Source: Aquaticitalea lipolytica (GTDB taxonomy: Bacteria > Bacteroidota > Bacteroidia > Flavobacteriales > Flavobacteriaceae). From it: 64,000 nt of DNA. The translations under genes were made by a program, and so were the position numbers. The stretch is from positions 434,001-498,000 of the forward strand of contig NZ_BMIC01000001.1 in assembly GCF_014641635.1 (NCBI RefSeq), in the 5' to 3' direction. A model generated the notes under the pieces. The model was not told where the DNA came from, did not search any database, and worked only from the letters and a program-made list of their open reading frames with translations. Every line of letters begins with the position of its first letter. Positions within the stretch are counted from its first letter, which is position 1. Below are positions 39,334-63,999 of this stretch, one piece after another.

Positions 39334-40649
39334 TTTTTATAATAAAATCTAGGTGCTGTTAATAAAACTGTTGCCAATAAAAAGAATCCTAATAATCCAA
39401 ATAATGGTCTGTATACATACAAATGTTCACCAAAATAAAGCGTTACTAACATGGCTAACACCAATCCATGTAAAGCCATTTTTAAGTATTTTGTTCTGTT
39501 TAAATTTAATAAAAAATAAGAGGCCAACCACCTTAAATACAAGATAAGACCTAGCAGACCAACTTCATTGATTAAACTTAAATAAATGTTGTGTGCAGAA
39601 AACCCAATAAGTAACCTATTGTTAAACCCAATACCTAAAGGAATTATATATGGTCGCTCTATTAAATATTTAGTATATGATGCTGCTAATTCCTTTCTTC
39701 CTGAACCCAAATCTTCATACAATTGGTCCACATCAACAGAGTTCTCACTCAATACAGTAGGATCACTTATTTTATTTGTAATTCTATCATCAAACACTTT
39801 TTGAGCCATTTCAACAACTTCTAAATTTAAAGATATAGCTGTCATGACAATAATTAAAAACACTACAGAAACTGAAATAAATTTTCGAGTATTTGCTATT
39901 AAAAAATAAGCTGCAAAAACTATAAGTGCTAAATAAGATGTTCTAGACCCAGTAATAACTAGTACTGTTCCACTTAACGTTATTGCTGAAAGCAATAAAA
40001 TTTTATTAATCTTAAGCTGCTTTTGCAAATATATACCCAGACTTACTGCAAAAGATATAAACATAGTCATTCCTAACACAATCTTATTTGGTCCGAGTGT
40101 ACCAGATAGAAATCCTAAATAAGACATTTTATATCTGTCATTCCATAAAAAAGGGACAATACCAGAGTTTTGTGCAATAACTAACAATGACTCACCAATA
40201 ATTAGAATTAAAAGTATATAAACAATAGCTTTAAAATTTTTGTATTTCATCACAAAAACTGAAACTAAAACTGCATATAAGAAAAAAACAAAAAAGTGAT
40301 AATAATACAATATAGACTGCAACAGCCACATAGGACGATTTAAAAAAATGCTAAACAACCCTGTGAAAATTAAAGTAATAGCCGACCAAATAAGAAAGTG
40401 ATTTAAGAACTTAAAATTAAGCTTCTGCTTTATGTAGTAATTTAAAACGCCAAAATTCTTGATATACAAATAACAAATTATAATCCCTAAAACATCATAT
40501 AACCTAATCTCATTTGATCCTTTTAAACTATAATTTGTAACAGGTAAATTATAAAAAAAAGAAACTACCATTAAATACATAGTTACCTTAACATATAAAG
40601 GCCCTATGATTAAATTTAATCTCTTATTTAATAATTCCTGCTTATCCAT
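39330..40649 (-). CDS. O-antigen polymerase/ligase-like membrane protein (Wzy/WaaL)
   Basis: This 439-residue protein has about eleven transmembrane helices and the Wzy_C/O-antigen ligase pattern: LGFLSGTLGPNKIVLGMTMF, then ITGSRTSYLALIVFAAYFLI (short Arg-containing turn at the helix start), then a long periplasmic loop around residues 270-335 (GSGRKELAASYTKYLIERP, then GFSAHNIYLSLINEVGLLGL). The SxHNxYLxxxxExGxxG motif is typical. It polymerises or ligates polysaccharide repeat units in the inner membrane. The cluster lacks a visible Wzx in this window. Confidence 0.88.
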   Translation of the reverse strand: MDKQELLNKRLNLIIGPLYVKVTMYLMVVSFFYNLPVTNYSLKGSNEIRLYDVLGIIICYLYIKNFGVLNYYIKQKLNFKFLNHFLIWSAITLIFTGLFSIFLNRPMWLLQSILYYYHFFVFFLYAVLVSVFVMKYKNFKAIVYILLILIIGESLLVIAQNSGIVPFLWNDRYKMSYLGFLSGTLGPNKIVLGMTMFISFAVSLGIYLQKQLKINKILLLSAITLSGTVLVITGSRTSYLALIVFAAYFLIANTRKFISVSVVFLIIVMTAISLNLEVVEMAQKVFDDRITNKISDPTVLSENSVDVDQLYEDLGSGRKELAASYTKYLIERPYIIPLGIGFNNRLLIGFSAHNIYLSLINEVGLLGLILYLRWLASYFLLNLNRTKYLKMALHGLVLAMLVTLYFGEHLYVYRPLFGLLGFFLLATVLLTAPRFYYKK

Positions 40650-40663: not shown

Positions 40664-41737
40664 CTAAATGTTTGAGTAAATATCAACTAATTTTTTACTT
40701 ATTTGGTTTGATGAAAATTCGTTTACAATTCTTTGGTGCAATTCACTTGCTGATTTTTTTCTAATTTCAATGTTTTCTATAAAGCAAAGTAATCCTTTTT
40801 TTAAAGTCACATAATTATTTGCTTCTACTAAAATGCCAACTTTGTCATTGTTTATAACTTCATCACAATTACCAACATTAGTAGCTACAACAGCTAATGA
40901 TGCTAAACCATACTCTAATAATGAAAGTGGTAATCCTTCAGATTTTGACGAAAGCACACCTATTTCTGCTTGGCTAAGTATATATTGCACATCTTTTTTA
41001 CTTCCATATATAAAAACCGAAGTATTTAAATTTAAATCTTGAATAGCTTGTTTTATACCAATAGAATAATCGTCTTCAAAATCTTTACCAACTAAATGCA
41101 ATGTCCATTTTGGTTGTTCTTTTACAATATCATTAAATGCTTTTAACAGTGTGAAGTGGTCTTTTTGAGGCCTTAAATTTGCTAAACACACTATTCTATA
41201 GCCACTCTCACCTTCTAATTGTGTTACTTTATCATTTGTTTTCTCATTAACTACAAAGTTGCTTATATAAGAAACCTTCTTGCAATTAAGATGAGATTCT
41301 GACCATTGTTTCAAGGTTTGATTTACGCTAATAACATGGCTAAAATAAATAGAACAAAACTGTAATACCTTATGCTTACGTTGTTGTAAAAACTCACTGT
41401 TTCCATAATGATCATGCCAAACAATTTTTACATTCTTATTAAACATTTTAATTATTGTTGCCAAGAAAAATGATGTAGAATGTGCGTGAATAACATCTAT
41501 ATTGTTGTCTTTTACAAATCTCATTAATGTTCTAATTGCTCTAACATCTAGCTTGTTTTTTTTATTTAAAAACAAATAACCTACACGATTATCAATAGCA
41601 TTAAATAGTATTCCTTCAGCTCTTGTGGCACACAAAAAAGACCCTTGAGTATGGTCAACCATAATATTGGCAATGTTAACAGCCATACGCTCTGCACCAC
41701 CAGCTTCTAATGAATCTATTAATTGCAGAACTTTCAT
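40664..41737 (-). CDS. Glycosyltransferase family 4
   Basis: This 357-residue protein starts KVLQLIDSLEAGGAERMAVN, the classical GT4 loop. The middle has DVIHAHSTSFFLA and WHDHYGNSEF. The C-terminal part has CLANLRPQKDHFTLLKAFN, LHLVGKDFEDDY, VFIYGSKKDVQ and SKSEGLPLSLLEYGLASLAV. It transfers an unknown sugar with retention of configuration, by family knowledge. It overlaps the next upstream GT4 gene by 4 bp (ATGA type). Confidence 0.92.
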   Translation of the reverse strand: MKVLQLIDSLEAGGAERMAVNIANIMVDHTQGSFLCATRAEGILFNAIDNRVGYLFLNKKNKLDVRAIRTLMRFVKDNNIDVIHAHSTSFFLATIIKMFNKNVKIVWHDHYGNSEFLQQRKHKVLQFCSIYFSHVISVNQTLKQWSESHLNCKKVSYISNFVVNEKTNDKVTQLEGESGYRIVCLANLRPQKDHFTLLKAFNDIVKEQPKWTLHLVGKDFEDDYSIGIKQAIQDLNLNTSVFIYGSKKDVQYILSQAEIGVLSSKSEGLPLSLLEYGLASLAVVATNVGNCDEVINNDKVGILVEANNYVTLKKGLLCFIENIEIRKKSASELHQRIVNEFSSNQISKKLVDIYSNI

Positions 41738-42849
41738 ATCTTTAAAATTTTAATAATTTCCGATTCAAATCGTTCTAAAGTATATTCTTGAGACCATTTT
41801 GAAGCTAATTTAGCCATTGCATTTAAATCTACATCCTGTATAGTTTTTGATATTGTTTTAACTGCTTCATCAATATCGTCAGAAATTAAAATGCCTCTAT
41901 TACCATAATCTAACATGTAAGGTACACAAGAGATATTAGTTGAAACTGGTATTGTGCCAAAAAACATAGCTTCTGCAATCACTTTTGGCCAGCCTTCAGA
42001 TTTTGATGGTAAAATTAAAAAATGTGATTTTTGCATTGCTTGTTTCACATTGCTTAATTCAACGTTACCTTTAAAATTAATTATATCACTAATGTTTTTA
42101 CTACTCAGATATGTTTCTAAATCTTGTCGTAATGCACCATCTCCATATACATCTAAAGTTACTTTATAACCTTGTGAATATAATTTTTCGATAATTTTTA
42201 TAGCCACATCTGGTTGCTTTCCTTCAACTAAATTACCTACAAACAAAAACTTTAAATCATTTTTATAGTCTCTATCTAAAGGCATATTTATTTCTGAATC
42301 ACTAAAAGAAGCTGTAAAAAAAGGTTTTATATTTTTTGATTGGCCTTTCCATTCACCATAAACTAATACTTCAATGTTTTTGGATAAAAACGTATTACTT
42401 AATAGCCATTTTTGGAATTTATAACTCAAAGGTTGTTTTGCCTTTGGGTCCCAGTTTCCTGCATATTTTACTGACTTAGGTTTTGAAGGAAATGCTATTT
42501 GAACCATACATCCTAACAAACTTATATTTCCTGGACAACGCAAATGAATGTGATCTGCTCTTTTGCACGATTTATAAATTTGAATCATCACCTTAGGGAT
42601 TTTAACAACCGATTTTATCACATTAAAAAAAGTTGTGAAATTAAGTGCAGAAATAGCACTAAATTCAATATTAGGATGCTGATATGCTATATCTGTACCC
42701 ATCTTCGTTTGAAGACTAATTGGCGCAACAACCTCTAGCTCATCAACGTGTTTTAACCATAGGTTCATTTCTCTTACATAAGGTTCGTAAGCATAATATA
42801 AATTATCCTTTTCATGGTGTTGTATATATGAAATAATTAGAAACCTCAT
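41734..42849 (-). CDS. Glycosyltransferase family 4
   Basis: This 371-residue protein has an N-terminal half with EVVAPISLQTKMGTD, RADHIHLRCPGNISLLG and YAGNWDPKAKQPLSYKFQKW. The C-terminal donor half has LKFLFVGNLVEGKQPDVAIK, LDVYGDGALRQDLE, INFKGNVELSNVKQAMQKSH and SKSEGWPKVIAEAMFFGTIP. The HxRCPGN region is seen in several capsule GT4 enzymes. The specific sugar is unknown. It overlaps both neighbours by 4 bp. Confidence 0.9.
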   Translation of the reverse strand: MRFLIISYIQHHEKDNLYYAYEPYVREMNLWLKHVDELEVVAPISLQTKMGTDIAYQHPNIEFSAISALNFTTFFNVIKSVVKIPKVMIQIYKSCKRADHIHLRCPGNISLLGCMVQIAFPSKPKSVKYAGNWDPKAKQPLSYKFQKWLLSNTFLSKNIEVLVYGEWKGQSKNIKPFFTASFSDSEINMPLDRDYKNDLKFLFVGNLVEGKQPDVAIKIIEKLYSQGYKVTLDVYGDGALRQDLETYLSSKNISDIINFKGNVELSNVKQAMQKSHFLILPSKSEGWPKVIAEAMFFGTIPVSTNISCVPYMLDYGNRGILISDDIDEAVKTISKTIQDVDLNAMAKLASKWSQEYTLERFESEIIKILKI

Positions 42850-43844
42850 CGTGCAATTTTAGGCTTATTTGTTAGTAAAGATAACCAACCGTAAACTCTT
42901 CCAATACCTTCAAAAAATGCATCTTTTTTATTTGATGAATTTAATACGTTGCTAAATCTTATTAAGGTTAAAAGTAGAGCAGTTAAATTCCATTTTAGTC
43001 TCGCTTTTAAATCAGGTTTATGATATTTAACTCGCCAAACATACCAACCGTTTCTTATTACCATTTTACCATACTTAAACATATTTGGTCGACCCAAAGC
43101 ATTATGATAATGCTCACATTTAGCAGATGTGTTTACATAGAGTTTTCCATACTTTGATAACCTTAAACAAAAATCAGCATCTTCGTAAAGTCCGTAACCC
43201 TCAAAATAAGATGAAAACTTAATATCTTCGAATACTTCTTTTTTATATGAAGAAACACCTCCCATAAATAATTCTACTTCATATGTTTTATCTGATGGAG
43301 GTAAAAACCCAACTGATCGACCATGAGAGTAGTCAGGCATAAATGCTGGTTTATCATCAGCAACCAACCCTAATTTTTGTCTTATTTTAAATCGACTAGG
43401 TTCGTCTCTACACCAATTATCATAACAAAATTGAACAGCTTTTGTATTATTACTATTTGCTTTATACCATTTCACTTCATTAGTTATATAGCCACCTACT
43501 CCAACAGTTTGAGGATTTTCAGTATAAGTATTTATTAAGTTTTTAAAGTAATTGGCTTCTAGAATAATGTCATCATCTAAAAAACAAACAACATTAATGA
43601 CTTTGTTCACTTTAGATATTCCAAAATTGCGTTGTTTGGTTAAACCTCTTTGAGTTTCATCAACCTTAAAATAGATTAAATTTTCAAAAATATTTTGCTC
43701 TAAAATGTATTTTGTTTCATCATTAGTAGAGCCATCAACGATAATAATTTGATTTGGATACAACGACTGCTCTTTTACTGAATTTAATAAATCCAATAGA
43801 GGTTTTGGTCGCATATATGTACAAACTATTAATGTAAATGTCAT
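42846..43844 (-). CDS. Glycosyltransferase family 2
   Basis: This 332-residue protein has a GT-A fold: TLIVCTYMRPKPLLDLLNSV, then IIIVDGSTNDETKYIL, RGLTKQRNFGI and VCFLDDDIILEANYF (DDD as metal/UDP site). FMGGVSSYKKEVFEDIKFSS followed by FEGYGLYEDADFCLRLSKYG provides the acceptor-side ED motif. The middle insertion with DEPSRFKIRQKLGL and DYSHGRSVGFLPP is characteristic of a family subset whose products often use N-acetylated sugars. Overlaps both neighbours by 4 bp. Confidence 0.9.
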   Translation of the reverse strand: MTFTLIVCTYMRPKPLLDLLNSVKEQSLYPNQIIIVDGSTNDETKYILEQNIFENLIYFKVDETQRGLTKQRNFGISKVNKVINVVCFLDDDIILEANYFKNLINTYTENPQTVGVGGYITNEVKWYKANSNNTKAVQFCYDNWCRDEPSRFKIRQKLGLVADDKPAFMPDYSHGRSVGFLPPSDKTYEVELFMGGVSSYKKEVFEDIKFSSYFEGYGLYEDADFCLRLSKYGKLYVNTSAKCEHYHNALGRPNMFKYGKMVIRNGWYVWRVKYHKPDLKARLKWNLTALLLTLIRFSNVLNSSNKKDAFFEGIGRVYGWLSLLTNKPKIAR

Positions 43845-45388
43845 ATACTAGTTTTAGCTTTTAATTGATTTGCCCACTTCTCACTAGATTTCCATCTTTC
43901 TCTCATTTGAGAAAAGTAAGAAACAATGTTTTTATTACTCTGCAATTTAAAATATTTAAAAAACAGTAATGTCTTATAGCCTTTAATTTGAAAATCGGTT
44001 TGGTGTTTCAAATTGTATAGCATAATAGTTGGTGAAGGTTTTGGCTGAACTTCATCATTCTGCCAAGGTTGAATAAAAGGTGCTCTAAAACCTCCTATTG
44101 GCGCTTTTAAGTGTACTAAATGCACTTGAGGAAGATATGCTATATCGTCTCCAAGATTTCGTAGTTGCATTCCGAAATCGCCATCTTCTCCAAAACCGTG
44201 TTCGTAGGCAATATCAAATGCTATTCGCTTTGCAATTTCATTACAAATAATACTACATCCAGAGCCAAATGTATGCCACTGCTTAATAGTAGTATTCTTC
44301 TCTTTTTCTCCTTCTTTTAAGCAGCTTAAAGTTGCTGCGTTAACACCTAAAACACTAATAGAATTTAAAGCTTTCTCTATAGTTAGGTTATCAAAACGAA
44401 TATCATCATCTGCCAAAAACACCCATTCAGACTCTACTTGTTTTAAAGCTGTATTTCTAGCATTACAAGCACCTGTTTGATGAATAAAACTGTGCTTAAT
44501 TTTAAATGGCCATGCTTTGGTAGTTAAAAAATCTAGTTCTGATTTACTATTAGCATCAGGGTTTTGCTCTACAATAATTACATTTTTAGGCAATAGTGTT
44601 TGACTTGCTAAATCTTGTAACACATCGTATAAAAAAGTTGCTCTTCCAATTGTTGGAATTACGACATCTATATCAAAATTAGGATTGTACCTTTTAGCTG
44701 AAACAACCTCAACATCCTTAAAATTTGGGTTAGATATACTACCAGAAGTAAAAAAAGATGATAAATATGGTAGTATCAAAAAACGTTTTTCATAAATCAT
44801 ACTATTGAATAACGTTAATAATGCCCAACGAGATCTATAATGCCATTTTATAAACTTAAACAACTCATAAGTTGAAGGTTTTATAGACTCTAAAACAACT
44901 GAATTAGGCTTTAAAAGTTTTGGTGAAGAGTAACAAAACAATCCGTTTTTTATTCCTGATTTGGCGATTGAATTTAACACAAAATCAAAAGTTTGATGTT
45001 TAAAATCTTTGTGTTTGAATTGTAATAACGCTTCTGCATAAATGCCTCCAATACAACTACTCATTAACCATGTTGGATAATTAACATTCTTATTCACTTT
45101 TATAAAAGGTGACGATTCTACATAACCTATTCGTTTATCAATGCAATATGAATTTCTGACCTCAAACGAAGCCATAATAAGTTTATGATGAAAAACAGCA
45201 ATGATTTCTTCTTCATTTATTGCTACTTTCAAATCATCATGACACCAAACAATGAGCCTGTTATAATTAGCTTTTGCTACTTCAAAAAAAGCCTCAACCA
45301 ACTTACTTGTTGAGATATTTATAGTCTTTTTTGAAGTATAATCTAAAACACTAACAACTTTATTCTGTTTATGTGTAATTACAATCAT
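43841..45388 (-). CDS. Glycosyltransferase family 2 with large unassigned N-terminal domain
   Basis: This 515-residue protein has its GT-A domain only from about residue 240: DIDVVIPTIGRATFLYDVLQ, then NVIIVEQNPDAN, GACNARNTALK, WVFLADDDIRF and GFGEDGDFGMQLRNLGDD. The first 240 residues contain a start (MIVITHKQNKVVSVLDYTSK), LIVWCHDDLK and YPTWLMSSCIGGIYAEALL, which resemble pieces of a second, degenerate GT-A-like domain. Two-domain transferases sometimes add two sugars. It overlaps its neighbours by 4 bp. Confidence 0.8.
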   Translation of the reverse strand: MIVITHKQNKVVSVLDYTSKKTINISTSKLVEAFFEVAKANYNRLIVWCHDDLKVAINEEEIIAVFHHKLIMASFEVRNSYCIDKRIGYVESSPFIKVNKNVNYPTWLMSSCIGGIYAEALLQFKHKDFKHQTFDFVLNSIAKSGIKNGLFCYSSPKLLKPNSVVLESIKPSTYELFKFIKWHYRSRWALLTLFNSMIYEKRFLILPYLSSFFTSGSISNPNFKDVEVVSAKRYNPNFDIDVVIPTIGRATFLYDVLQDLASQTLLPKNVIIVEQNPDANSKSELDFLTTKAWPFKIKHSFIHQTGACNARNTALKQVESEWVFLADDDIRFDNLTIEKALNSISVLGVNAATLSCLKEGEKEKNTTIKQWHTFGSGCSIICNEIAKRIAFDIAYEHGFGEDGDFGMQLRNLGDDIAYLPQVHLVHLKAPIGGFRAPFIQPWQNDEVQPKPSPTIMLYNLKHQTDFQIKGYKTLLFFKYFKLQSNKNIVSYFSQMRERWKSSEKWANQLKAKTSI

Positions 45389-46524
45389 TTATTAATTACA
45401 GCTTTATAAAATTCTATATTCTGATTTGTGATTTTTTCAGCAGAAAATTTTTCGATAACGCGTTGTCTTCCTGCTTTGCCAAAAGATTCACATAATTGCT
45501 TATCATTTAATAACTCAATAATTCTTTCAGCAAACTCTTTATGGTTTTTTGGACTTACAGTAAAACCAGTTTTATTATCAACCATAAGTTCATTTGCCCA
45601 ACCAATATTTGAAGACACTAAAGCTTTTTCCATCGCTAATGTCTCTAACCAAGTCATCGGAAACGCTTCAGCAAAACTTGGTAAAACCACAATATTTGCC
45701 TTGCTTATATAGTTTTTAATCTCGTGATATGGCACTTCTTTTATGTGTTTTACTTTTGTTTTAGCTTCAGGAGTTAAAAGATTATAAAACAACTCTATTG
45801 TAGATGTTTTGGTGAATACATCAATGGCATCTTTACCCAATAAAAGCAAATTTGCTTTTTCATTTTTTATAACTACTAAATTAAATGCTTCTGCTAATTC
45901 TAAAACTCCTTTTTTGCGAATAATAGTTCCGAAGTAAAGCAATTGACCTTCATTAATATGGGATTCAATAGGTGAAAATTGATTGGCATCAATTCCGTTA
46001 TGAATTGTTTTTATATGATGCTTTAAACTAAATATCTTTTTGGTTAACTCTCCAGTAAACGTACTTACAGACACTACTTCTTGCGCACTTGTTAACGCTG
46101 TTTTTTCTAATACAAAATTTTTAAATTTTTGTGTTCTGCCATCAAGTTTACAAAAGTAAGCATCGCTTCCATTAAGGCGTATAACTATAGGAACTGTAAA
46201 TTTCATAAAAGCAGAAATACCAGTCCAATCTGGCGCTTCAATTAGCTGAATTCTTTCTTTATCTATTTCTTTTTGAATAATTTTCTGAATTCGTTTACGC
46301 TCGTTATACCATCCAAAAATAGCATGCTTAACAGCTTTAATGCTCACAATTTTAACATCTTGGTCATTATAAATATCATCTTGATTTTGATATGCTACAA
46401 ACACAGTCACTTTAACTCCAGAATTAGACAAACCAACAGCCAAATTTTTTATGCTAGTCCCTAAACCTCCTGAAGGTTTTAAATTAGCATGTGGATATTC
46501 AGATGTTAAAAAACCTATGTGCAT
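45385..46524 (-). CDS. Glycosyltransferase family 4
   Basis: This 379-residue protein starts HIGFLTSEYPHANLKPSGGL and GTSIKNLAVGLSNSGVKVTV, the glycogen-synthase-like GT4 N-terminal loop. IQLIEAPDWTGISAFM and IHNGIDANQFSPIE follow. The donor domain has LLYFGTIIRKKGVLELAEAF, LLLLGKDAIDV and VVLPSFAEAFPMTWLETLAM with EKALVSSNIG. The FxxxFPxTxLE form is typical of this subfamily. Specific sugar unknown. Its stop overlaps the next gene's start by 4 bp. Confidence 0.92.
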   Translation of the reverse strand: MHIGFLTSEYPHANLKPSGGLGTSIKNLAVGLSNSGVKVTVFVAYQNQDDIYNDQDVKIVSIKAVKHAIFGWYNERKRIQKIIQKEIDKERIQLIEAPDWTGISAFMKFTVPIVIRLNGSDAYFCKLDGRTQKFKNFVLEKTALTSAQEVVSVSTFTGELTKKIFSLKHHIKTIHNGIDANQFSPIESHINEGQLLYFGTIIRKKGVLELAEAFNLVVIKNEKANLLLLGKDAIDVFTKTSTIELFYNLLTPEAKTKVKHIKEVPYHEIKNYISKANIVVLPSFAEAFPMTWLETLAMEKALVSSNIGWANELMVDNKTGFTVSPKNHKEFAERIIELLNDKQLCESFGKAGRQRVIEKFSAEKITNQNIEFYKAVINK

Positions 46525-47612
46525 TATACGAGTTTTAAATAATTATCAACCATTGTTTTTAAGGCATATTGCTCTCTAATTTTTGATGAAAACGAATTGT
46601 TTAACAAACTAATTTTATCATTACAAATTTGAGTTATTATGCTTTGAAGTGCATTAACATCTTTAGCTTTAAACAAATAGCCATTAGTACCATCTTTTAC
46701 AATTTCTACATTTCCACCAACTGTTGTAGTAATTACAGGCACATTACAACACAAACTTTCTAATATTGATAAACTAAAGGCTTCCATATATGTTGGTTGA
46801 ATCATATAATCGTACGCTTTATACAAAGCATACAAATTATCTACACTTCCTTTAAAATTAATTGTGCTTTCTAAATTATATTTATGTACTAAATCTGTTA
46901 ATGTAGATTTATAAATACCTTCTCCAAAAACATCAATTGTAATGTTTTCTAAAGTAGTTTTATTTAGTTTGGTTAGCGCTAAAATTAAATCTTGAATTCC
47001 TTTTTCATACACTAAATGAGAAACTACAATAAATCTATAACTAACTAGATTATCTCTTTTTTCTTGTTCTCTTACTTGGTATAATTCTGTTTGGATTCCG
47101 TTATAAATGACGTCTGTTCTATTTTCTAAATTAGAGCTATAATCTTTTAAATTTTGATTTTTTATATACTCACTTACAGCTATAATCTTATCAATACTTT
47201 TATTGTTAATTAAATATTTTAATTTTCTTTTTATCCTTTTTTTTAATGGAAATCCATCTAATGGTCTAGACATGTGGTCTACAGCAAATACTTTACAATT
47301 AAGTTCGCTTTTTACTGTTTTATAAAAGGAAGTAAATAATTCAATGAAATGTGTATACACATAATCATATTCGACCTTATTGCTATATATGTGATTCAAA
47401 AAAAGACCTTCAATATTACTTTTATCGTCTGAAAAAACACTCACACTATTATAAATCTCTAATTGTTCAGACTTCGGAAAAAACCAATCAACAGTATAAC
47501 CTCTTTTTTTACAAGCCTCATCAAAAGCTAAAAAAAAGCGATCCATACTACCAATTCTATTTGCTTTTAATTGATAGTTACAAATTACTGCTATACGTTT
47601 TACTTTATGCAT
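46524..47612 (-). CDS. Glycosyltransferase family 4
   Basis: This 362-residue protein has VKRIAVICNYQLKANRIGSM at the start and DYVYTHFIELFTSFYK in the middle. SEYIKNQNLKDYS and DVIYNGIQTELYQV precede the donor domain with RFIVVSHLVYEKGIQDLILA, ITIDVFGEGIYKSTL, INFKGSVDNLYALYKAYDYM and PTYMEAFSLSILESLCCNVP. Arrangement as in other GT4 enzymes of surface glycan clusters. The next upstream gene overlaps its start by 13 bp and the downstream gene starts within its stop (1-bp overlap). Confidence 0.9.
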   Translation of the reverse strand: MHKVKRIAVICNYQLKANRIGSMDRFFLAFDEACKKRGYTVDWFFPKSEQLEIYNSVSVFSDDKSNIEGLFLNHIYSNKVEYDYVYTHFIELFTSFYKTVKSELNCKVFAVDHMSRPLDGFPLKKRIKRKLKYLINNKSIDKIIAVSEYIKNQNLKDYSSNLENRTDVIYNGIQTELYQVREQEKRDNLVSYRFIVVSHLVYEKGIQDLILALTKLNKTTLENITIDVFGEGIYKSTLTDLVHKYNLESTINFKGSVDNLYALYKAYDYMIQPTYMEAFSLSILESLCCNVPVITTTVGGNVEIVKDGTNGYLFKAKDVNALQSIITQICNDKISLLNNSFSSKIREQYALKTMVDNYLKLV

Positions 47613-49012
47613 TCTTTAATTATTGTGGCTATACGTTTTCCTGTGTTTTTTAATGGATGGCTAATTTGTAAATCGAGCAATTGCTTTTGAGCTTCTAGTC
47701 GCTTATTAGGGTTTTGCAATGAAGAATTAATCTCATTTATTAAAGATACAGCATCTTTTACAATGGCAACTGCTCCACTTTCAGCAACACGCTTATAATG
47801 TTGAAATTTTAAAAATCGCTGATCGTCGTATAATCCATTCTCTTTATTTCCAAAAACAGGGTTAATTACTGGTTTATCAAAAAACATAGCATCTAAACTC
47901 ATAGTTGAGCACATATTTATTGAAATATCTGTATATTCCAACACACTTTTTAAATCTGTAATATCTTCAATTGTAGGAATACGTTGCGACCACGTTTCTT
48001 GATGTCCATCGCGTGTTAACTTCCATTTAGGGCAGTTCCATTTAATAAAAGGATACTCTTCTTTTAAATGCATAAAACGAGTAGGTTCTTCAGCAGGTGA
48101 TGTTCGCACTAATAAATTAACAGGTCTTTTTATTGTATTTTGTTTAATAGCTTCAGCTATGGTTTTTATGTATAAATCATCATTTTTACTTGTAGACACA
48201 TCTCCACAGCTATAACAGATAGTCTGTTTAGTTTCATCTAAATCAAACTTTTCAAAAAAAGTCTTTTTTGTTGAGTTATATCTATCTAAAACGTAAGGCT
48301 CAAACTGTGGTGTACCAACTACCTTAATCTGATTTTCAGTAATGGTTTTATAAAACTCTAAAAGTTCCGATTTCATTAAATGACTCCAAACAAAATAGTA
48401 ATTAAAATTACCACTCATTCGACCTTTTGAAGCCAAATTATCCCAACTAAAAATAAATGTTGCAGTATTAGTATGTGTTTGCTCTGAAGCATAAATTAAT
48501 GGAGCAATATATGGTGGACGTTGGTGTGTAAAGTAAACTATATCTGGACTATGCGTTTTTAAAAGTGCTATATAACGTTTTGTGGTTACATTATTTTTAA
48601 ATGTTTTTTGTTGACATCTATTATAGATATTTATCCAATTTTCTGAATGAAAAAAGTAAGTCCAAGCAAAAATTAGTTTTGTTAAAACACCTCTTTTGCT
48701 ATTAGATTTTGGATAGTTTCCTCTTAAATTATCTCGTATTCCGAAATTATTTTTTTTATGATTTTGCAAATGAGCTACTTCTTTTAACTTCCTGAAAAAC
48801 CATGTTTTTGAAGGTTCTCTAAAGTCTTCAAGCTCTTCAATAGTGCAATTATCTACATTAAATCCTTCAAAACATGATTTTGGTAATCCAGAAAAAATGA
48901 TGATGTCTTGAAATTGGTGTTTTGCTTCTTGTAAAAAATCACTCATTATGTAATTTCTAAAGCCTACACCATCTGTAATGACCAATGCTATTTTAGATGT
49001 TTTTACTTGCAA
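47600..49012 (-). CDS. GT-B-like capsule/surface polysaccharide transferase
   Basis: This 470-residue protein starts at TTG 49012: it is the only start after an in-frame stop that keeps the first strand KIALVITDGVGFRNYI. The C-terminal half looks like a donor-binding Rossmann domain (QTICYSCGDVSTSKNDDLYI, then NLLVRTSPAEEP, then SINMCSTMSLDAMFFDKPVI). The second half, with its SxMSLDAxxFxxPVI motif, resembles CDP-glycerol glycerophosphotransferase/capsule Kps-type enzymes. IVYFTHQRPPYIAPLIYASE in the middle is part of the acceptor domain. Activity uncertain. A promoter-like box precedes it. Confidence 0.7.
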   Translation of the reverse strand: MQVKTSKIALVITDGVGFRNYIMSDFLQEAKHQFQDIIIFSGLPKSCFEGFNVDNCTIEELEDFREPSKTWFFRKLKEVAHLQNHKKNNFGIRDNLRGNYPKSNSKRGVLTKLIFAWTYFFHSENWINIYNRCQQKTFKNNVTTKRYIALLKTHSPDIVYFTHQRPPYIAPLIYASEQTHTNTATFIFSWDNLASKGRMSGNFNYYFVWSHLMKSELLEFYKTITENQIKVVGTPQFEPYVLDRYNSTKKTFFEKFDLDETKQTICYSCGDVSTSKNDDLYIKTIAEAIKQNTIKRPVNLLVRTSPAEEPTRFMHLKEEYPFIKWNCPKWKLTRDGHQETWSQRIPTIEDITDLKSVLEYTDISINMCSTMSLDAMFFDKPVINPVFGNKENGLYDDQRFLKFQHYKRVAESGAVAIVKDAVSLINEINSSLQNPNKRLEAQKQLLDLQISHPLKNTGKRIATIIKECIK

Positions 49013-49093: not shown

Positions 49094-50800
49094 TCAGGAC
49101 AATAACAGTGAGAAATTTACCAATTGCCATATATGAAAACTAGACTGATTGTTTCCTTTTAAATATGAGTTCCACTCTTTATCAATCTCACCCATATTAA
49201 ACCATGACGCATAGTTACTAGATTTGATTTTATTTATATGCATCTCAACAAACTCTTTTAAGTCTTCAGACAGCCATTCACGTTGTGGCGTTTGCAATGG
49301 TCGTTTTGGCGCATAAGATATAGATTGCGGCACATATTTAGATATCACATCACGTAAAATGCGTTTATTTTGTTGGCCTTTTATTTTGAATTCTATTGGA
49401 AGTGAAAAACCAAATTCTACCAATCGGTAATCTAAAAATGGTTCTCTTAACTCTGTAGAATATGCCATAGAAACTCTATCGTTAAAACGTAATGCTCTCG
49501 GAATTTTAGTATAAAATAAATCTCTATACTGTAAATTCTGTACGTTATTATTAAATGGCTTTGGGTATTGATGTTTTACAATCTCATCACTACTTGTTAC
49601 ATTAATAATTTGAGGCTTGAATGGGCTTTCAGTAACTCCTTGAATAGTTGCTTGTAAATTTGATGAATAGTAATCATAACCTGCTAATTGCTCATCCATA
49701 CCTTGACCATCTAGCAATACTTTTATGCCTTTATTCTTGGCAGTTTTAAATAATTTGGAATACGCTAAAGTTGGGATTCCGCCAAAAGGTTCATCTTGAA
49801 AATCACTTATAAAGTTTGATAATTCTGGAACTTCTTTAGCTACTAATAATACTTCATTTAATGGATTGTTATAATGACTTATCATTTGTTTTACCCAAGG
49901 CAACTCATCATATCGTTCATCATTAGTATAAAAAGTAAATGCTTCAATTTTATTAGTGTTAACCTGTGATTGATTAACTAAAGCCAATAAAGCCGAACTA
50001 TCTAATCCTCCACTTATATTAAATCCGACAGGAACATCTGCTCTAAAACGTAATTTTACGCTATCAAAAAGCAAACTGCTATATATTTCTTTAGCTTCGC
50101 TGTAGTTGTTTATCTGTGGATGTTTTGCGATTTGATCAACAAAATCATACCATTCTGTAATGGTTAAATCTCCGTTTTTAAGTTCTAAAAAATGCCCTGC
50201 AGGAAGTTGATATATATCTTCCCAGAACGTTTCATTTGGTAAACCATAACTGCCATTTATAAAATAATGATTCCAAATATTTTGATTTGGCTTTTTATTT
50301 ACACCGCTTTTATGAATGGCTTTTATCTCACTTGAAAAAACAAATGTACTTGCATTGTGATGGTAATAAAACGGCTTAACACCAAAACGGTCTCTAACTG
50401 CAAATAAAGTTTTCTCTTTAGTATCCCAAATAGCAAACGAGAACATACCATTTAACATGTTTAAACACGATTTGCCGTATTTAATATATAATGCCAGGAG
50501 TACTTCTGTATCAGATTGAGTTTTAAAATCATACTCGTTTTTTAATGTTTCCTTTAATTCGAGATAATTATAAATTTCACCATTAAAAACGATATAATAC
50601 CGTTTTGAATAATCTGTAAAGGGTTGGTTTGCTTGTGAAGATAAATCTATAATTGACAATCGGTTATGACCAAGTGCTGCAAAATTTTTATCATAGTAAA
50701 TACCTGTGAAATCTGGACCTCTATGCACTTGTGATTGCAACATAGCTTGCAGTGGAAACTCATAATTTTCATGACCTACAAGTCCTGCAATGCCACACAT
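49094..50800 (-). CDS. asnB: Asparagine synthetase (glutamine-hydrolysing)-type amidotransferase
   Basis: This 568-residue protein starts MCGIAGLVGHENYE; Cys2 is the glutaminase nucleophile. RGPDFTG, FNGEIYNYLELK and KTQSDTEVLLALY are typical of the class II amidotransferase domain. The synthase domain carries the PP-loop ISGGLDSSALLAL (about 263-275) and KVLLDGQGMDEQLAGY. In surface-glycan clusters such enzymes may amidate a sugar carboxylate, for example a uronic acid or an amino-acid substituent, rather than make free asparagine. It sits 1 bp downstream of the CMP-sugar synthetase gene, which supports a glycan role here. Confidence 0.9.
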   Translation of the reverse strand: MCGIAGLVGHENYEFPLQAMLQSQVHRGPDFTGIYYDKNFAALGHNRLSIIDLSSQANQPFTDYSKRYYIVFNGEIYNYLELKETLKNEYDFKTQSDTEVLLALYIKYGKSCLNMLNGMFSFAIWDTKEKTLFAVRDRFGVKPFYYHHNASTFVFSSEIKAIHKSGVNKKPNQNIWNHYFINGSYGLPNETFWEDIYQLPAGHFLELKNGDLTITEWYDFVDQIAKHPQINNYSEAKEIYSSLLFDSVKLRFRADVPVGFNISGGLDSSALLALVNQSQVNTNKIEAFTFYTNDERYDELPWVKQMISHYNNPLNEVLLVAKEVPELSNFISDFQDEPFGGIPTLAYSKLFKTAKNKGIKVLLDGQGMDEQLAGYDYYSSNLQATIQGVTESPFKPQIINVTSSDEIVKHQYPKPFNNNVQNLQYRDLFYTKIPRALRFNDRVSMAYSTELREPFLDYRLVEFGFSLPIEFKIKGQQNKRILRDVISKYVPQSISYAPKRPLQTPQREWLSEDLKEFVEMHINKIKSSNYASWFNMGEIDKEWNSYLKGNNQSSFHIWQLVNFSLLLS

Positions 50801-50801
50801 A

Positions 50802-51500
50802 TTATTTCTGTTTAGATTTCAAATAAGCTTCAGCTTTATGCCAATCGTCCATAGTATCTATATTGATTTGACCTTCTTCAGGCGACTCAATATATGCTAT
50901 TTTATTTCCGTAGATTGAATTTTGTTCTAATAAAACGCTAGTTTTTGTAATATAAATTAATCCATCTCTGTGATAAACCGTTGGTAAATCTTGACGTCTA
51001 CTAATAATTTGCTTATCGTTGGTTGTTAAGTTTAAAAACCCTTCTTCATTAGCTTTAAAAGTCCAATGAGGATTATATTCGGCTGGTACTTTTTGAACAG
51101 AAATCAAAGCATCACAATCACTTTCAATAAATTTTTTTATAGAAGCATCAATAAAATCACCTGTTTTAAAAGGGCTGGTAACTTGCAATAAACAAACAGC
51201 ATCAAAATGAATGTTTTGAAATTTAAAAAACTGAAGTGCATGTTGAATAACTGGTAACGTTGGTGAAGCATCTTCAGCGAGATGCGAAGGCCTTTTAAAA
51301 GGAACATCTACTTTTAAGTTTTTAGCAATAGAAATAATCTCATCATCATCAGAACTTAAAATAACTCGAGATAATAATTTAGAATTGTTAGTAGCTTCTA
51401 AAGTATATTGCAATAAAGGTTTTCCATCTAACTCCTTAATGTTTTTTTTAGGAATCGATTTTGAACCTCCTCTTGCTGGTATAATGCCTAAAATGGTCAT
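50802..51500 (-). CDS. neuA: Acylneuraminate cytidylyltransferase (NeuA/PseF/LegF-like)
   Basis: This 232-residue protein starts ILGIIPARGGSKSIPKKN, the CTP-binding signature of CMP-nonulosonate synthetases. VILSSDDDEIISIAKNL, ASPTLPVIQHAL, CLLQVTSPFKTGDFID and YHRDGLIYITKT are also conserved. It activates a nine-carbon sugar as the CMP derivative for transfer. It stands last in the set NeuB - NeuC - NeuA, and its start overlaps the NeuC stop by one base. Whether the sugar is Neu5Ac, legionaminic acid or another nonulosonate cannot be read from this gene. Confidence 0.9.
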   Translation of the reverse strand: MTILGIIPARGGSKSIPKKNIKELDGKPLLQYTLEATNNSKLLSRVILSSDDDEIISIAKNLKVDVPFKRPSHLAEDASPTLPVIQHALQFFKFQNIHFDAVCLLQVTSPFKTGDFIDASIKKFIESDCDALISVQKVPAEYNPHWTFKANEEGFLNLTTNDKQIISRRQDLPTVYHRDGLIYITKTSVLLEQNSIYGNKIAYIESPEEGQINIDTMDDWHKAEAYLKSKQK

Positions 51501-52660
51501 TAATACATAATGGTTTTATGATACCTCAACTCTATAGTTGCTAAAATATCTGCTATTTTTTCACCTGAATCACCATTACCATAAATAGTGTCTTTTGCAA
51601 TTCTATTTTCTGTTTGTATTCTGTTTAGTATTCCATTTTTAATGGCATCTTTTTCATAAGACACATCTATAACATTTTCACCACGAGCTCTTCCGTGTTG
51701 TCGTGTACCAATATTCACTACAGGCACACCTAAAAAAGCACATTCCCTAATACCAACGCTAGAATTTCCTACTAAACATTTACTGTTACAAAGCAAACGC
51801 AAAAAATCTTCTGGAATCATATTTTTGAAAAAATGAATGTTTTCTGGCTGATATTCTTCTCGGTAAGACCGAATTCCGTTTGAAGTTCCATCAGCTCCTG
51901 AATCTACATTAGGCCAAAACCAAAATGCAGGAATTCCTAATTCGTGAACTACTTTTAAAGTATTATAAACGTTCTCGCGTGCTTGGTCATATTCAGTGGT
52001 TACAGGATGTTGCATTACAACAATATAACCGTCTTGCCAATTTATCTTTTTACCAACGCCCCCATATTTATCAATAGGGTTGAAATCTAATTTCGGATTA
52101 CGACTCACTTCATAAGCTATATCGATAGAAGGACATCCAGTATTAAATACAAAATCTTCGTCTTCTCCCATTTTTAAAACACGTGTTTTTGCTTCTTCTG
52201 AAGCAACAAGATGTATATCAGCTAATTTTGTATTTGCATGACGTACTTTCTCATCAATATTACCAGTTACTTCTCCTCCTTGAATATGCACTAATGGTAT
52301 ATTTTGATAAGACGCTGCAATAGATACTGCAATGGTTTCAAAACGATCAGCAATAGCCACAACAGCATCTGGTTTTAGATTATAAAAGGTATTTGAAAGC
52401 TCCATAACTCCTAATCCAGTGGTTTTAGCCATTGAGGTTTTGTTCTCGCCTTCTAACACAATAAACACCTTTTCATTAATCACAAAACCATCATCTTCAA
52501 TATAATTTACTGCATTACCATAGCGATCTAACAAAGCAGAACCAGCTACCACGAGTTGCAATTCTAGTTTTGGATGCGCTTGAATAGCTTTTAAAGCAGT
52601 TTTTACTCTACTGTAAGAAGGTCTTGCAGTTATAACCACACAAATTTTACGTTTATTCAT
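51500..52660 (-). CDS. neuC: UDP-N-acetylhexosamine 2-epimerase, hydrolysing (NeuC/LegG-like)
   Basis: This 386-residue protein has VVITARPSYSRVKTALKAIQ at the start, then VVAIADRFETIAVSIAASYQ and the signature HIQGGEVTGNIDEKVRHANT with KLADIHLVAS. FNTGCPSIDIAY, VMQHPVTTEY and CLVGNSSVGIRECAFLGVPV follow. It releases UDP and gives the free 2-epimer (ManNAc for NeuC, a 2,4-diacetamido sugar for LegG), the substrate for NeuB. The GGE motif and the neighbours support the hydrolysing type. It overlaps neuB by 8 bp. Confidence 0.9.
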   Translation of the reverse strand: MNKRKICVVITARPSYSRVKTALKAIQAHPKLELQLVVAGSALLDRYGNAVNYIEDDGFVINEKVFIVLEGENKTSMAKTTGLGVMELSNTFYNLKPDAVVAIADRFETIAVSIAASYQNIPLVHIQGGEVTGNIDEKVRHANTKLADIHLVASEEAKTRVLKMGEDEDFVFNTGCPSIDIAYEVSRNPKLDFNPIDKYGGVGKKINWQDGYIVVMQHPVTTEYDQARENVYNTLKVVHELGIPAFWFWPNVDSGADGTSNGIRSYREEYQPENIHFFKNMIPEDFLRLLCNSKCLVGNSSVGIRECAFLGVPVVNIGTRQHGRARGENVIDVSYEKDAIKNGILNRIQTENRIAKDTIYGNGDSGEKIADILATIELRYHKTIMY

Positions 52661-53654
52661 TTAAATCTTGTTGTGTTAAAAAATCCCATTGCTGCAGATC
52701 TCTATTAATTTTTTTACCAATAATAGAATTAAAATAAGTTGCAGCAATGCCTTTATCAGCTGGTTTTTTTGCTTCTAAATCTTCAAAAGTAAGCACATGT
52801 CCTTTTTTTAAATCTTTATTTATAGCTAACGATTTCTCAAAAATAGACTTTAAGTCTTTAAATGATGAATTATCGTTTTTATTAACTGGATGCTGTAATG
52901 CTTTTTCAATATTATTTACAGAAGTTACCAATGCACTTATATCGTCTATAGTTAACGATGATGTTACATCTGGTCCAAATTGCTGTTTATTAAATACTGC
53001 ATGAAACTCAAGTATTTCTGCTCCTAAAGCAACTGCAGCAACACAAGTCTCTAGTTTAGCAGAATGATCTGAAAAACCAACAGGAACATTATATCTTTTT
53101 TTTAATTCACAAATAACATTAAGTCCGTATTGTTCTGGTTGTGTTGGATATGAAGTTGTACATTGCAAAATAGAATACTCAACATCCTTTAATTTTAAAA
53201 AGTCTACAGCATTATCTAGTTCTTTATATGAACTCATGCCTGAAGATAAAATTACAGGTTTTTTGGTTTGTGCAATTTTTTCTAATAGTAAAAAATTAGT
53301 GACTTCGCCAGAACCTATTTTATATCTATCTACGCCAACTTCTTCCAACACATCAACAGCAGCATTACTAAAGGGAGAGCTCATAAACTCTAATCCTACT
53401 TCATTGCAATGTGCTTTTAATTCTTTCCACTGCTCTAAGGTAAATTCCATACGCTTCCAGTAGTCAAAACGTGTTTTATCTTGCTTTGAAAATTTAACTC
53501 TAAAAGGTTCATAAATGCTGCTTTCTGCTTCAGCAATATGCGTTTGAAACTTTATAGCATGCACACCTGTTTTAGACAATGCATCAATATATGCATGAGC
53601 AGTACCTAAACTACCATCATGTGCTTGAGCTATTTCAGCAATAATAAAAGGCAT
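52653..53654 (-). CDS. neuB: Nonulosonic acid synthase (NeuB family)
   Basis: This 333-residue protein starts FIIAEIAQAHDGSLGTAHAY with IDALSKTGVHAIKFQTH, the NeuB TIM barrel. FMSSPFSNAAVDVLEEVGVD, RYKIGSGEVTNFLLLEKIA, PVILSSGMSSYKELDNAV, LQCTTSYPTQPEQYGLNVI and VGFSDHSAKLETCVAAVALG follow, including barrel residues that bind PEP and metal. The last 60 residues (LKKGHVLTFEDLEAKKPADK, then GIAATYFNSIIGKKINRD) are the SAF/antifreeze-like domain. It condenses phosphoenolpyruvate with an N-acylated hexosamine. It heads the NeuB - NeuC - NeuA set; the GT2 genes upstream follow 2 bp away. Confidence 0.92.
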   Translation of the reverse strand: MPFIIAEIAQAHDGSLGTAHAYIDALSKTGVHAIKFQTHIAEAESSIYEPFRVKFSKQDKTRFDYWKRMEFTLEQWKELKAHCNEVGLEFMSSPFSNAAVDVLEEVGVDRYKIGSGEVTNFLLLEKIAQTKKPVILSSGMSSYKELDNAVDFLKLKDVEYSILQCTTSYPTQPEQYGLNVICELKKRYNVPVGFSDHSAKLETCVAAVALGAEILEFHAVFNKQQFGPDVTSSLTIDDISALVTSVNNIEKALQHPVNKNDNSSFKDLKSIFEKSLAINKDLKKGHVLTFEDLEAKKPADKGIAATYFNSIIGKKINRDLQQWDFLTQQDLNE

Positions 53655-53656: not shown

Positions 53657-54574
53657 CTAATGTTTTGTGTTATTTGGTTTCCAATAGAGCTTTACATCTG
53701 GCAATTTACTGAATTCTTTAAACTCTTTTAAAGATAATCTATTACTATTTGCTATTAATTTTGGTGTATTTAAAACCACATCTCCTAAAGCTTGAACAAT
53801 TGCCACTAATGTTTTAAACTGACCTTTAAACACTTTCAACTTCAACTGCATCCATAAAGAATAGGCGAATTTTTGAGGTATTAATTTTATAGGGTAAAAT
53901 AATAAGTACAAATACCAACCTGCTCTTAAAGAGCGTCTTTGACGTAATATATAATCGTGGTTGTTTTTACGCTCAATTAAATCTACACGATGGTGACATA
54001 AAATATCTGGAGCGTAAAGCACTTGCTTATTGTTCTTAAAAAGGTTGAAACTCGCAAAGTCTTCTTCACCATAAAAAATAAACCATTCTGGATAATCAGG
54101 CAACTGTTTCCAATCATTCATTCTCCAAACATGTGCTCCACCTGCAAAGTTCTTAACTCGCTCTAGTTGTTGATTATGTTCAGTGGTCTCTGGATTCGAA
54201 GTACTCCAAAAAATCCTGAAACTAATAACTGCGCATGCATTATTCTGGCTAAAAACAGCCTCAATAACCTCTAGAGGTTGTTGCGTAATAAAATGCAAAT
54301 CATCATCAATTGATATGGCATAAACAGCTTTTGTTTTTTCTAAAAGTCGGTTCCTACTATAAATTAAGCCTTTTGAAGTTTCGTTTTTAAATATCTGAAT
54401 TTCTGGATGATTGTTTTTTATATAATCATAAGTATTGTCACTTGAGCCATCATCCCAAATAATACATTCAACATCTGGACGATGTATTAAATGACTTATT
54501 TTACTTAATGTAAATTTTAAGTCTTCTATCCTATTTTTAGTAGTTATTAATATGCCGAATTTTGGTTGTGTCAT
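53657..54574 (-). CDS. Glycosyltransferase family 2
   Basis: This 305-residue protein has a GT-A domain: FGILITTKNRIEDLKFTLSK, then CIIWDDGSSDNTYDYI, SKGLIYSRNRLL and AISIDDDLHFI. FAGGAHVWRMNDWKQLPDYP and WFIFYGEEDFASFNLFKNNK provide the ED motif. HHRVDLIERKNNHDYILRQR and a partly hydrophobic stretch (AGWYLYLLFYPIKLIPQKF) suggest membrane association. Sugar unknown. It starts a run of five tightly packed GT2 genes (53.6-58.1 kb), overlapping the next upstream one by 4 bp. Confidence 0.9.
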   Translation of the reverse strand: MTQPKFGILITTKNRIEDLKFTLSKISHLIHRPDVECIIWDDGSSDNTYDYIKNNHPEIQIFKNETSKGLIYSRNRLLEKTKAVYAISIDDDLHFITQQPLEVIEAVFSQNNACAVISFRIFWSTSNPETTEHNQQLERVKNFAGGAHVWRMNDWKQLPDYPEWFIFYGEEDFASFNLFKNNKQVLYAPDILCHHRVDLIERKNNHDYILRQRRSLRAGWYLYLLFYPIKLIPQKFAYSLWMQLKLKVFKGQFKTLVAIVQALGDVVLNTPKLIANSNRLSLKEFKEFSKLPDVKLYWKPNNTKH

Positions 54575-63522: not shown

Positions 63523-63999
63523 TTAAAAACCTCCACCAATTGGTATTGTTGGCTGAATAGTTATTGGATTAAAATTAAACTCACGATGCATAAAAATACT
63601 TGTCGTCCAAGTATAATCGTTAATTGGACCTAAGCCATGAAAGTCTACTTCTATAAATCCTAGATCTCTAAATGTGTTAGCTATTTCTGGGTGTCGATCA
63701 CTATTATCTAAAATAATTAAACCTCCATTATTTAGCATTTTAGTAGCCTCTTTTGAGCAAGCCTCTCTTTTAACTCCATCAATCAATATTATATCAAATT
63801 TCACATTAAACTCTTTAGGTTTAAGTTCATAATCAGTGTCAGCAAAAACTAATGTTTGGTTTTTAATTTTAAACTGTTTAACTTTTTCATACCATTCTAT
63901 ATTGTGATCTATTGAATATAATTCTTTTACTCTTTGAGCAAAAAACAATGATGAATTACCTGAACCCCATTCTAACATGATTTTATTAGATAAGTCTAA
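63523..63999 (-). CDS. Class I SAM-dependent methyltransferase, 5' truncated by window edge
   Basis: The frame is open to the right edge: upstream of the ATG at 63978 seven more codons (LDLSNKI) are in frame and fit the strand before motif I, so the real start is outside. IMLEWGSGNSSLFFAQRVKE is motif I. LYSIDHNIEWYEKVKQF, FDIILIDGVKREACSKEATK and GGLIILDNSDRHPEIANTF follow. It is a Methyltransf_24-like O-methyltransferase by pattern. The glycan cluster therefore continues to the right. Confidence 0.85.
   Translation of the reverse strand, partial: LDLSNKIMLEWGSGNSSLFFAQRVKELYSIDHNIEWYEKVKQFKIKNQTLVFADTDYELKPKEFNVKFDIILIDGVKREACSKEATKMLNNGGLIILDNSDRHPEIANTFRDLGFIEVDFHGLGPINDYTWTTSIFMHREFNFNPITIQPTIPIGGGF

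Follow-up and report, generated by a model that had tools for sequence, protein, structure and literature searches.

A three-gene cassette encoding NeuB, NeuC and NeuA homologs in Aquaticitalea lipolytica is probably the donor module of a distinct Bacteroidota class of NeuB and NeuC enzymes. It would be an exchangeable nonulosonate cassette, found with or without an AsnB-like amidotransferase, and its likely transferase is a neighboring protein that we call GTx. The window, i.e. the whole stretch of DNA that was analyzed, comprises 64,000 nucleotides of contig NZ_BMIC01000001.1 (RefSeq assembly GCF_014641635.1, positions 434,001 to 498,000), and coordinates are counted from its first letter. 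This reading draws, from sequence, on gene content and order, retained catalytic residues, separate clades, in-place exchange, and the association of GTx and AsnB with the cassettes. We would file these three genes under a distinct class of nonulosonate cassettes rather than under an established N-acetylneuraminic acid (Neu5Ac) pathway. In the comparisons, L-numbers denote loci and G-numbers genomes; G000 is the own genome and L052 the own locus.

The three genes lie on the minus strand and encode a NeuB-family nonulosonate synthase (52653..53654, 333 amino acids), a NeuC-like hydrolyzing uridine diphosphate (UDP)-N-acetylhexosamine 2-epimerase (51500..52660, 386 amino acids) and a NeuA-like cytidine monophosphate (CMP)-nonulosonate cytidylyltransferase (50802..51500, 232 amino acids). 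An earlier note on this DNA had claimed this gene order, which was confirmed with overlaps of 8 bp (NeuB/NeuC) and 1 bp (NeuC/NeuA) and with the catalytic residues intact. The AsnB-like gene (49094..50800, minus strand) starts one base beyond NeuA and is followed by GTx (47600..49012, minus strand, 470 residues), a run of GT2 and GT4 glycosyltransferases, an O-antigen-ligase-like protein and a sugar-phosphate transferase. The whole genome gave one NeuB match and two Epimerase_2 matches, and no DNA match to the cassette was found in plasmids. The guanine-plus-cytosine fraction is 0.32 over the cassette versus 0.28 to 0.30 nearby, which fits cassette exchange but proves nothing.

The Pfam E-values of NeuB (1.5e-70), NeuC (Epimerase_2, 6.4e-69) and NeuA (CTP_transf_3, PF02348, 4.4e-22) place the family assignments far beyond chance. 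NeuB belongs to the NeuB superfamily by its TIM barrel (PF03102) and SAF domain (PF08666) and by residues E25, K53, K129, E134, H215, H236, and D247, which were invariant in 44/44 rows of the class defined below. Labels such as E25, K53, H215, H236, and R314 follow what we take to be the numbering of Neisseria meningitidis NeuB (NmNeuB), placed by alignment; this enzyme is also the closest solved relative in PDB. The best NCBIfam model was NeuB_NnaB (TIGR03569) with 316.3 bits, below its cut-off of 399.65, which was narrowly missed also by a sequence of the neuraminic acid (Neu) type (L141, 396.0 bits). Among 99 related genomes, the NeuB matches at 1e-20 fell into two well-separated groups: one match at 58 to 100% identity in each of 16 genomes, the own genome among them, hereafter type i, and the remaining matches listed at 30 to 37%. 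In a tree of 44 rows, type i (16 rows) and the Neu group with NmNeuB (8 rows) formed separate clades, each with a Shimodaira–Hasegawa approximate likelihood-ratio test (SH-aLRT) value of 100. The other rows were a pseudaminic acid (Pse) group with PDB 8h2c (5), a ketodeoxynonulosonic acid (KDN)-like group (6) and two legionaminic acid (Leg) groups (7 and 2). The trees of NeuB, NeuC and GTx are quick trees with long-branch warnings, and the Neu, Leg and Pse labels of most reference rows come from neighboring genes by similarity, structures being at hand only for NmNeuB, 8h2c, GNE, and 5xvs. In the phylogeny that the earlier note had proposed as a check, the synthase thus falls among nonulosonate enzymes, yet in its own clade apart from Neu, Leg and Pse.

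Three substitutions in NeuB, R314K, N184T, and R235F, were fixed in 44/44 type i rows. The other long NeuBs, a mixed group of 47 rows including Leg-set rows, had Arg314 in 46 and Asn184 in 43. Arg314 is presumably contributed by the partner subunit. Passages of one study (PMC7371886) tie Asn or Tyr at position 184 to N-acetylneuraminate synthase and Phe at the C2-specificity position to Pse; the latter residue is Gly, not Phe, in 44/44 type i rows. A pseudaminic pathway was rejected on this Gly, on the placement outside the Pse clade and on the PseB match of the own genome (215.1 bits versus a cut-off of 407.75).

NeuC exceeded the cut-off of the equivalog model TIGR03568 (396.6 versus 235.9 bits), and its best PDB match was the human GNE epimerase domain (4zht, 228.7 bits versus 185 for 5xvs). 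In GNE numbering, D112, R113, H132, D143, R147, H220, N253, S301, S302, E307, and R321 were kept in 46/46 type i rows, and D21S, H49A, G111A, and E134Q were fixed in the same 46/46; one Neu-type row of the alignment has no N-terminal positions. Arg113 and Ser302 are linked to the hydrolyzing reaction in passages of PMC4793188. Because type i NeuC keeps both residues and exceeds the TIGR03568 cut-off, it has the sequence features of a hydrolyzing UDP-N-acetylglucosamine (UDP-GlcNAc) 2-epimerase. The NeuC tree separated type i (16 rows, SH-aLRT 99), Neu (7 rows, 100) and a clade of seven Leg-context rows with 5xvs (8 rows, 99), whose support dropped to 75 without 5xvs; GNE was unplaced near the base.

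Position 134 of NeuC distinguishes these groups. In passages from Chen and colleagues (PMC4793188), Glu134 is the proposed contact of the 4-OH, with Gln (43/500) and His (17/500) counted as less frequent equivalents. We found Glu in 44/44 Neu-type rows and GNE, His in the seven Leg-context rows and 5xvs, and Gln in 46/46 type i rows. A loop one residue longer occurred in the seven Leg-context rows and 5xvs and in none of the type i (0/46) or Neu-type (0/44) rows, which have the GNE-length loop. Type i NeuC, with Gln134 and a GNE-length loop, therefore matches neither the Neu-type nor the Leg-context pattern. The protein 5xvs is named an N,N'-diacetylbacillosamine (diNAcBac) 2-epimerase in one listing and a UDP-GlcNAc 2-epimerase NeuC in another. 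Since it carries both marks of the Leg rows under the latter title, His134 and the longer loop are not proven Leg marks, and if 5xvs does act on UDP-GlcNAc, position 134 would be weakened as a substrate mark.

For NeuA, the best NCBIfam model was PseF (183.1 bits, below the cut-off of 205.7), and the closest solved relatives are NeuA-type CMP-sialate synthetases; its domain and relatives identify it as a CMP-nonulosonate cytidylyltransferase. With the synthase among nonulosonate enzymes and the families and catalytic residues intact, the earlier suggestion of a sialic acid or related nine-carbon sugar was supported. Because type i NeuB forms its own clade, a "related" sugar describes the product no less well than "classical Neu5Ac." A plain Neu5Ac pathway, in which NeuC would convert UDP-GlcNAc to N-acetylmannosamine (ManNAc), NeuB would form Neu5Ac and NeuA CMP-Neu5Ac, the class differences being drift, is nevertheless a serious alternative that we place a little short of an even chance. 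The GNE domain as best structural match of NeuC and the loop length shared by type i (46/46) and Neu-type rows (44/44) speak for it, as do sister strains that swap the two sets in place (see below), as if the products were interchangeable. It is opposed by the separation of type i from Neu in both the NeuB and NeuC trees, by the fixed changes at the proposed C4 contact (E134Q) and at D21, H49, and G111 of NeuC and R314 and N184 of NeuB, and by a NeuB score below the N-acetylneuraminate synthase cut-off.

Pfam scanning covered all 28 genes counted in the window from 34 to 64 kb, the 28th of which (63523-63978) is cut by the window end and was read from its full-length copy in L052. No gene matched a sialyltransferase family, a DegT-type aminotransferase or a sugar dehydratase, in agreement with two further statements of the earlier note, that no sialyltransferase family was recognized near the cassette and that no Leg or Pse dehydratase or aminotransferase is present there. 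No kinase turned up in the scan of the cluster proteins. Away from the window, the genome does encode a PglF-like dehydratase and a LegC-like aminotransferase (G000:C2:235-238 kb), which score below the cut-offs of their models; the genes of the window by themselves therefore do not decide the sugar type. They belong to a second surface-glycan locus of this genome (L137, G000:C2:228000-244000), which also encodes Wza-like and Wzc-like proteins. A legionaminic-type sugar, for which NeuC would use UDP-diNAcBac made in trans by this pair, is consistent with the presence of the two genes and with matches to both models in 15/16 genomes with type i NeuB, but we regard it as quite improbable. Type i NeuB and NeuC stand outside the Leg groups; NeuC has Gln134 instead of the His of 7/7 Leg-context rows and no longer loop, although these marks, shared by 5xvs, are not proven for Leg; the pair of the own genome is below the LegC and PseB cut-offs; and G056, a type i genome of 86% completeness, shows neither gene. 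LegC- and PseB-like genes were dropped as a discriminator, since matches in 15/16 type i genomes say little.

The cassette appears to occupy an exchangeable slot. Loci were fetched by GTx alone, 80 in total and nearly all titled Flavobacteriaceae or Bacteroidetes; 43 carried a Neu-type (type ii) cassette, 30 a type i cassette (17 with AsnB) and 7 no cassette in the flank. In five of these seven, the contig ends within 2.2 kb upstream, two of the five having AsnB there, and the genomes of the other two hold NeuB elsewhere. With the window, ten loci found via NeuB and ten found via GTx in further genomes, 101 GTx rows were obtained (44 type i, 45 type ii, 5 KDN-like, 7 none); the rows are related to each other, so that neither counts nor Fisher p-values are independent. 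Four pairs of sister loci were compared gene by gene (L079/L074, L090/L075, L085/L093, and L064/L059). GTx was 80 to 88% identical and the downstream genes were mostly conserved, whereas NeuB, NeuC and NeuA were 29 to 35% identical, and AsnB was missing from one partner of each pair, coming and going with the cassette. The upstream gene was conserved in three pairs (L090/L075, 75%; L085/L093, 68%; L064/L059, 59 to 60%). L090 (Flavobacterium segetis DSM 19741, type i with AsnB) and L075 (Flavobacterium micromati DSM 17659, Neu-type) have neighbors on both sides at 74 to 99% identity, cassette genes at 29 to 32% and AsnB in one only. We read these four pairs as in-place exchange of a type i for a Neu-type cassette.

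In four related genomes (L138, L139, L140, and L142), the neighbor of GTx is a KDN-like set, with a short NeuB and a NeuA fused to a domain that matches KDN-9-phosphatase at 142.6 bits (cut-off 180) and KdsC over its cut-off. A polysaccharide pyruvyl transferase family protein (L138:9283-10104) lies between this set and GTx, and L139 and L140 have equally long genes at this place. Among the other loci, L045 and L145 (both G043) form a split cassette, with type i NeuB on one contig and NeuC, NeuA and GTx on another. Near the nonulosonate cassettes of L039 (1989-4848) and L042 (1329-4952), an aldolase-like protein (about 510 amino acids), a cytidylyltransferase and a HAD protein adjoin each other; as annotated by sequence inspection, the trio is perhaps another ulosonate route. 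L068 and L077, contigs of metagenome-assembled genomes titled Bdellovibrio and Bifidobacterium, have GTx that groups with Flavobacteriaceae rows and are probably mis-binned. In a sample of 395 genomes, the type i class was found in Flavobacteriaceae, the family of the window, and in four other Bacteroidota families.

AsnB contains PF13537 and PF00733, exceeds the TIGR01536 cut-off and is below that of TIGR03108; its translation shows an N-terminal MCGI motif and an SGGLDSS motif. It has a WbpS-type architecture, with glutamine amidotransferase and synthetase domains in a polysaccharide locus. AsnB was present in 17/30 type i versus 0/43 type ii loci (Fisher p 7e-9, for rows that are not independent), and two further AsnB loci end before any cassette could be seen. 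It was absent in 21/44 type i rows, some of which have nothing between NeuA and GTx and others different genes; L143 was counted as lacking AsnB, and a homolog lies further along the same stretch. In 11 AsnB-free type i rows, a gene of 312 to 336 residues stands beside a more distant NeuA (34 to 42% identity). Five of these genes were scanned, and all encode D-2-hydroxyacid dehydrogenases between NeuA and GTx (L054:9061-10005, L087:8971-9912, L096:8024-9007, L044:11360-12331, and L039:8174-9112).

The carboxylate that AsnB may amidate could belong to the nonulosonate or to a uronic acid of this glycan. The second option would make AsnB a WbpS-like enzyme unrelated to the nonulosonate, acting on a hexuronic acid such as N-acetylgalactosaminuronic acid (GalNAcA), and we judge it almost evenly balanced, tipping slightly to the negative. 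TviB- and TviC-like genes that could make GalNAcA lie in the same cluster (L052) just outside the window, and the known AsnB-like enzymes of polysaccharide loci make uronamides, as passages of PMC7468200 describe: PGN_1234 (WbpS) of Porphyromonas gingivalis is needed for glucuronamide and WbqG for a uronamide. Against it, AsnB is tied to the cassette class at the same locus (17/30 versus 0/43) and moves with the cassette in the four sister pairs, and TviB occurs in 21/22 genomes tested whatever the cassette. TviB therefore does not explain the tie of AsnB to type i, and its presence was dropped as a discriminator.

GTx of the window gave no Pfam match at 0.001, and other members gave weak matches to CDP-glycerol transferase, MGDG synthase and GT4 models. 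A profile search against PDB sequences returned two chance-level matches. An AlphaFold2 model built from 48 rows had a mean predicted local distance difference test score of 93.6 and a GT-B fold. This model gave a VIA Z of 23.5 to NeuC 5xvs (root-mean-square deviation 3.4, 323 aligned residues), tied with several others, 20.2 to TarL (3.8, 318 aligned) and 19.1 to TagF (4.3, 327 aligned); identity to the fold matches was 9 to 18% among the matches listed.

GTx accompanies nonulosonate genes widely. It was found in 21/99 relatives, and NeuB (1e-20) was present in 19/21 of these versus 18/78 genomes without GTx (Fisher p 2e-8). The two GTx genomes without NeuB at this threshold (G007 and G050) have a KDN-like synthase, scoring below it, beside GTx, and two of the 19 with both genes also have a KDN-like set there; KDN-like sets were looked for only in GTx genomes, the 78 others being counted at NeuB 1e-20 only. 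In 21/21 genomes, GTx had at least part of a cassette no more than about 20 kb away on its contig, and 73/80 loci fetched by GTx alone showed a nonulosonate cassette in the flank. Among the 395 Bacteroidota genomes, GTx was present in 14/17 with type i NeuB versus 19/378 without; these phylum searches scored about four to five candidates per genome, so misses are possible, and the type i and GTx counts are taken as the same 395 genomes because their handles agree. GTx is thus the best candidate for the missing nonulosonate transferase, as judged by linkage and predicted fold.

Several observations weigh against the reading of an exchangeable distinct-class cassette served by GTx. The exchange is not equally clean everywhere, as the upstream side is not conserved in L079/L074 and some downstream genes are also replaced, and NeuC and NeuB might, with their fixed changes, handle the usual UDP-GlcNAc and ManNAc substrates in a different way. 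GTx was not found in G056 (1/16 relatives with type i NeuB) or in 3/17 type i genomes of the phylum sample. The closest solved folds of its model are UDP-GlcNAc 2-epimerases and other GT-B enzymes. The GTx tree follows cassette type weakly, with 39 label changes versus 49.4 in shuffles (0/200 as low) and a minimum of 4: type ii, type i without AsnB and type iii were more clustered than shuffles (3, 0, and 0 of 500 as low), but type i with AsnB was not (443/500 as low). Sister GTx proteins 80 to 88% alike serve a type i cassette with AsnB in one strain but a type ii cassette in its sister strain. Finally, synteny with the cassette extends to the flanking glycosyltransferases, and GTx is therefore not singled out by linkage alone.

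These data also bear on the possibility that GTx adds another sugar of a shared backbone and that the nonulosonate is transferred by a GT2 or GT4 neighbor or by an enzyme encoded elsewhere, which we hold to be possible, though less probable than not. The mixing of cassette types on the GTx tree and the equal synteny of the other glycosyltransferases favor it, as does the lack of a known CMP-sugar sialyltransferase among the 50 fold matches listed per search, an absence from the list that excludes nothing. However, GTx stands near a nonulosonate set in five relatives with no GT2_332 match at 1e-60 (G013, G034, G040, G043, and G065). Its neighbors fall in GT2 and GT4 Pfam families, which to our knowledge contain no CMP-nonulosonate transferase, and this counts against a GT2 or GT4 neighbor in that role. 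Two ideas were set aside: donor-specific co-evolution of GTx is weak at best, type i with AsnB being as scattered as shuffles, and GT2_332 was of little use as a control for cluster-level linkage, since it nearly always accompanies GTx (17/99 relatives, 16 of them with GTx). For GTx as the transferase, its occurrence beside differing cassettes fits a tolerant enzyme or equivalent donors; it equally fits a GTx that does not use the nonulosonate.

The other cluster genes described here are likewise on the minus strand. A GT2 glycosyltransferase (53657..54574, PF00535), often syntenic, lies upstream of NeuB. Downstream of GTx are two syntenic GT4-type glycosyltransferases (46524..47612 and 45385..46524, PF00534) and a syntenic GT2 protein (43841..45388) with PF00535 at residues 242-372 only and an N-terminal part of about 240 residues of no Pfam family; full-length relatives including this part are present in many related loci. 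They are followed by GT2_332 (42846..43844, PF00535), conserved in the locus, another syntenic GT4-type enzyme (41734..42849, PF00534), an O-antigen ligase or Wzy-like membrane protein (39330..40649, PF04932) and, at the far end, the sugar-phosphate transferase (34316..35710, PF02397). Beyond the window, L052 continues with a weak methyltransferase match, an ATP-binding cassette (ABC) transporter ATPase with Wzt_C, an ABC-2 membrane protein, TviC- and TviB-like genes (below those model cut-offs), a second sugar-phosphate transferase, a Wzc-like AAA_31 protein and a Wza-like Poly_export protein.

Taken as the donor-making module of a surface-polysaccharide locus, the three genes would act in sequence: NeuC would hydrolyze and 2-epimerize a UDP-N-acetylhexosamine, NeuB would condense phosphoenolpyruvate with the released sugar, giving a nine-carbon acid, and NeuA would activate this acid as a CMP sugar. 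GTx would most likely add the activated sugar to the growing glycan, whose exit is probably via the ABC exporter and the Wza- and Wzc-like proteins encoded just outside the window. In a bolder version, which we think rather unlikely, this is a further Bacteroidota pathway whose epimerase and synthase are adapted to a different substrate from those of Neu, Leg, Pse or KDN; AsnB would amidate the product carboxylate to a less acidic nonulosonamide, GTx would accept several CMP-nonulosonates, and strains would swap the donor cassette while keeping the transferase.

Nonulosonates as such are not new in this bacterial group, because passages of PMC3210612 report pseudaminic acid in Cellulophaga fucicola and another nonulosonate in Flexibacter maritimus. 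In listings of the open-licence literature, we found no paper on Flavobacteriaceae neuBCA-AsnB loci or on the GTx transferase, and no title or abstract opening in these listings reported enzymatic amidation of a nonulosonic acid. The cassette gains interest over a bare gene trio from its candidate transferase, its exchange and its link to AsnB. Surface sialic-acid-like sugars are usually read from gene names, and type i can be recognized by several fixed residues. A slot with interchanging nonulosonate sets is a natural experiment on the role of the sugar, and GTx offers a concrete candidate for a transferase family that Pfam still lacks. Should the nonulosonate be the substrate of AsnB, enzymatic neutralization of a nonulosonic acid would be possible.

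Compared with known systems, the cassette shares with the Neu5Ac pathway (NeuC/GNE, NeuB, and NeuA) the three families, overlapping genes, the GNE-length loop and Arg113 plus Ser302, but differs in its separate NeuB and NeuC clades, its substrate-side changes, the NeuB score below the equivalog cut-off and the lack of a kinase among the scanned cluster proteins. The Leg and Pse pathways likewise use a NeuB-family synthase and, for Leg, a NeuC-family epimerase; unlike in these pathways, no dedicated dehydratase or aminotransferase is found among the scanned cluster proteins, the C2-specificity residue is Gly and not Phe, and NeuC lacks His134 and the longer loop. A set resembling the KDN pathway of Bacteroidota occupies the place beside GTx in four related genomes, but its synthase belongs to a different clade, and the cassette of the window has no phosphatase domain. 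In its predicted overall fold, GTx resembles GT-B enzymes (UDP-GlcNAc 2-epimerases, GT4, and TarL/TagF), whereas it is 9 to 18% identical among the matches listed and has no Pfam match at 0.001. AsnB resembles WbpS, WbqG and PGN_1234 in being an AsnB-like enzyme in a surface-polysaccharide locus; according to passages of PMC7468200, those enzymes act on uronic acids, whereas AsnB here goes with one nonulosonate cassette class and is below the TIGR03108 cut-off.

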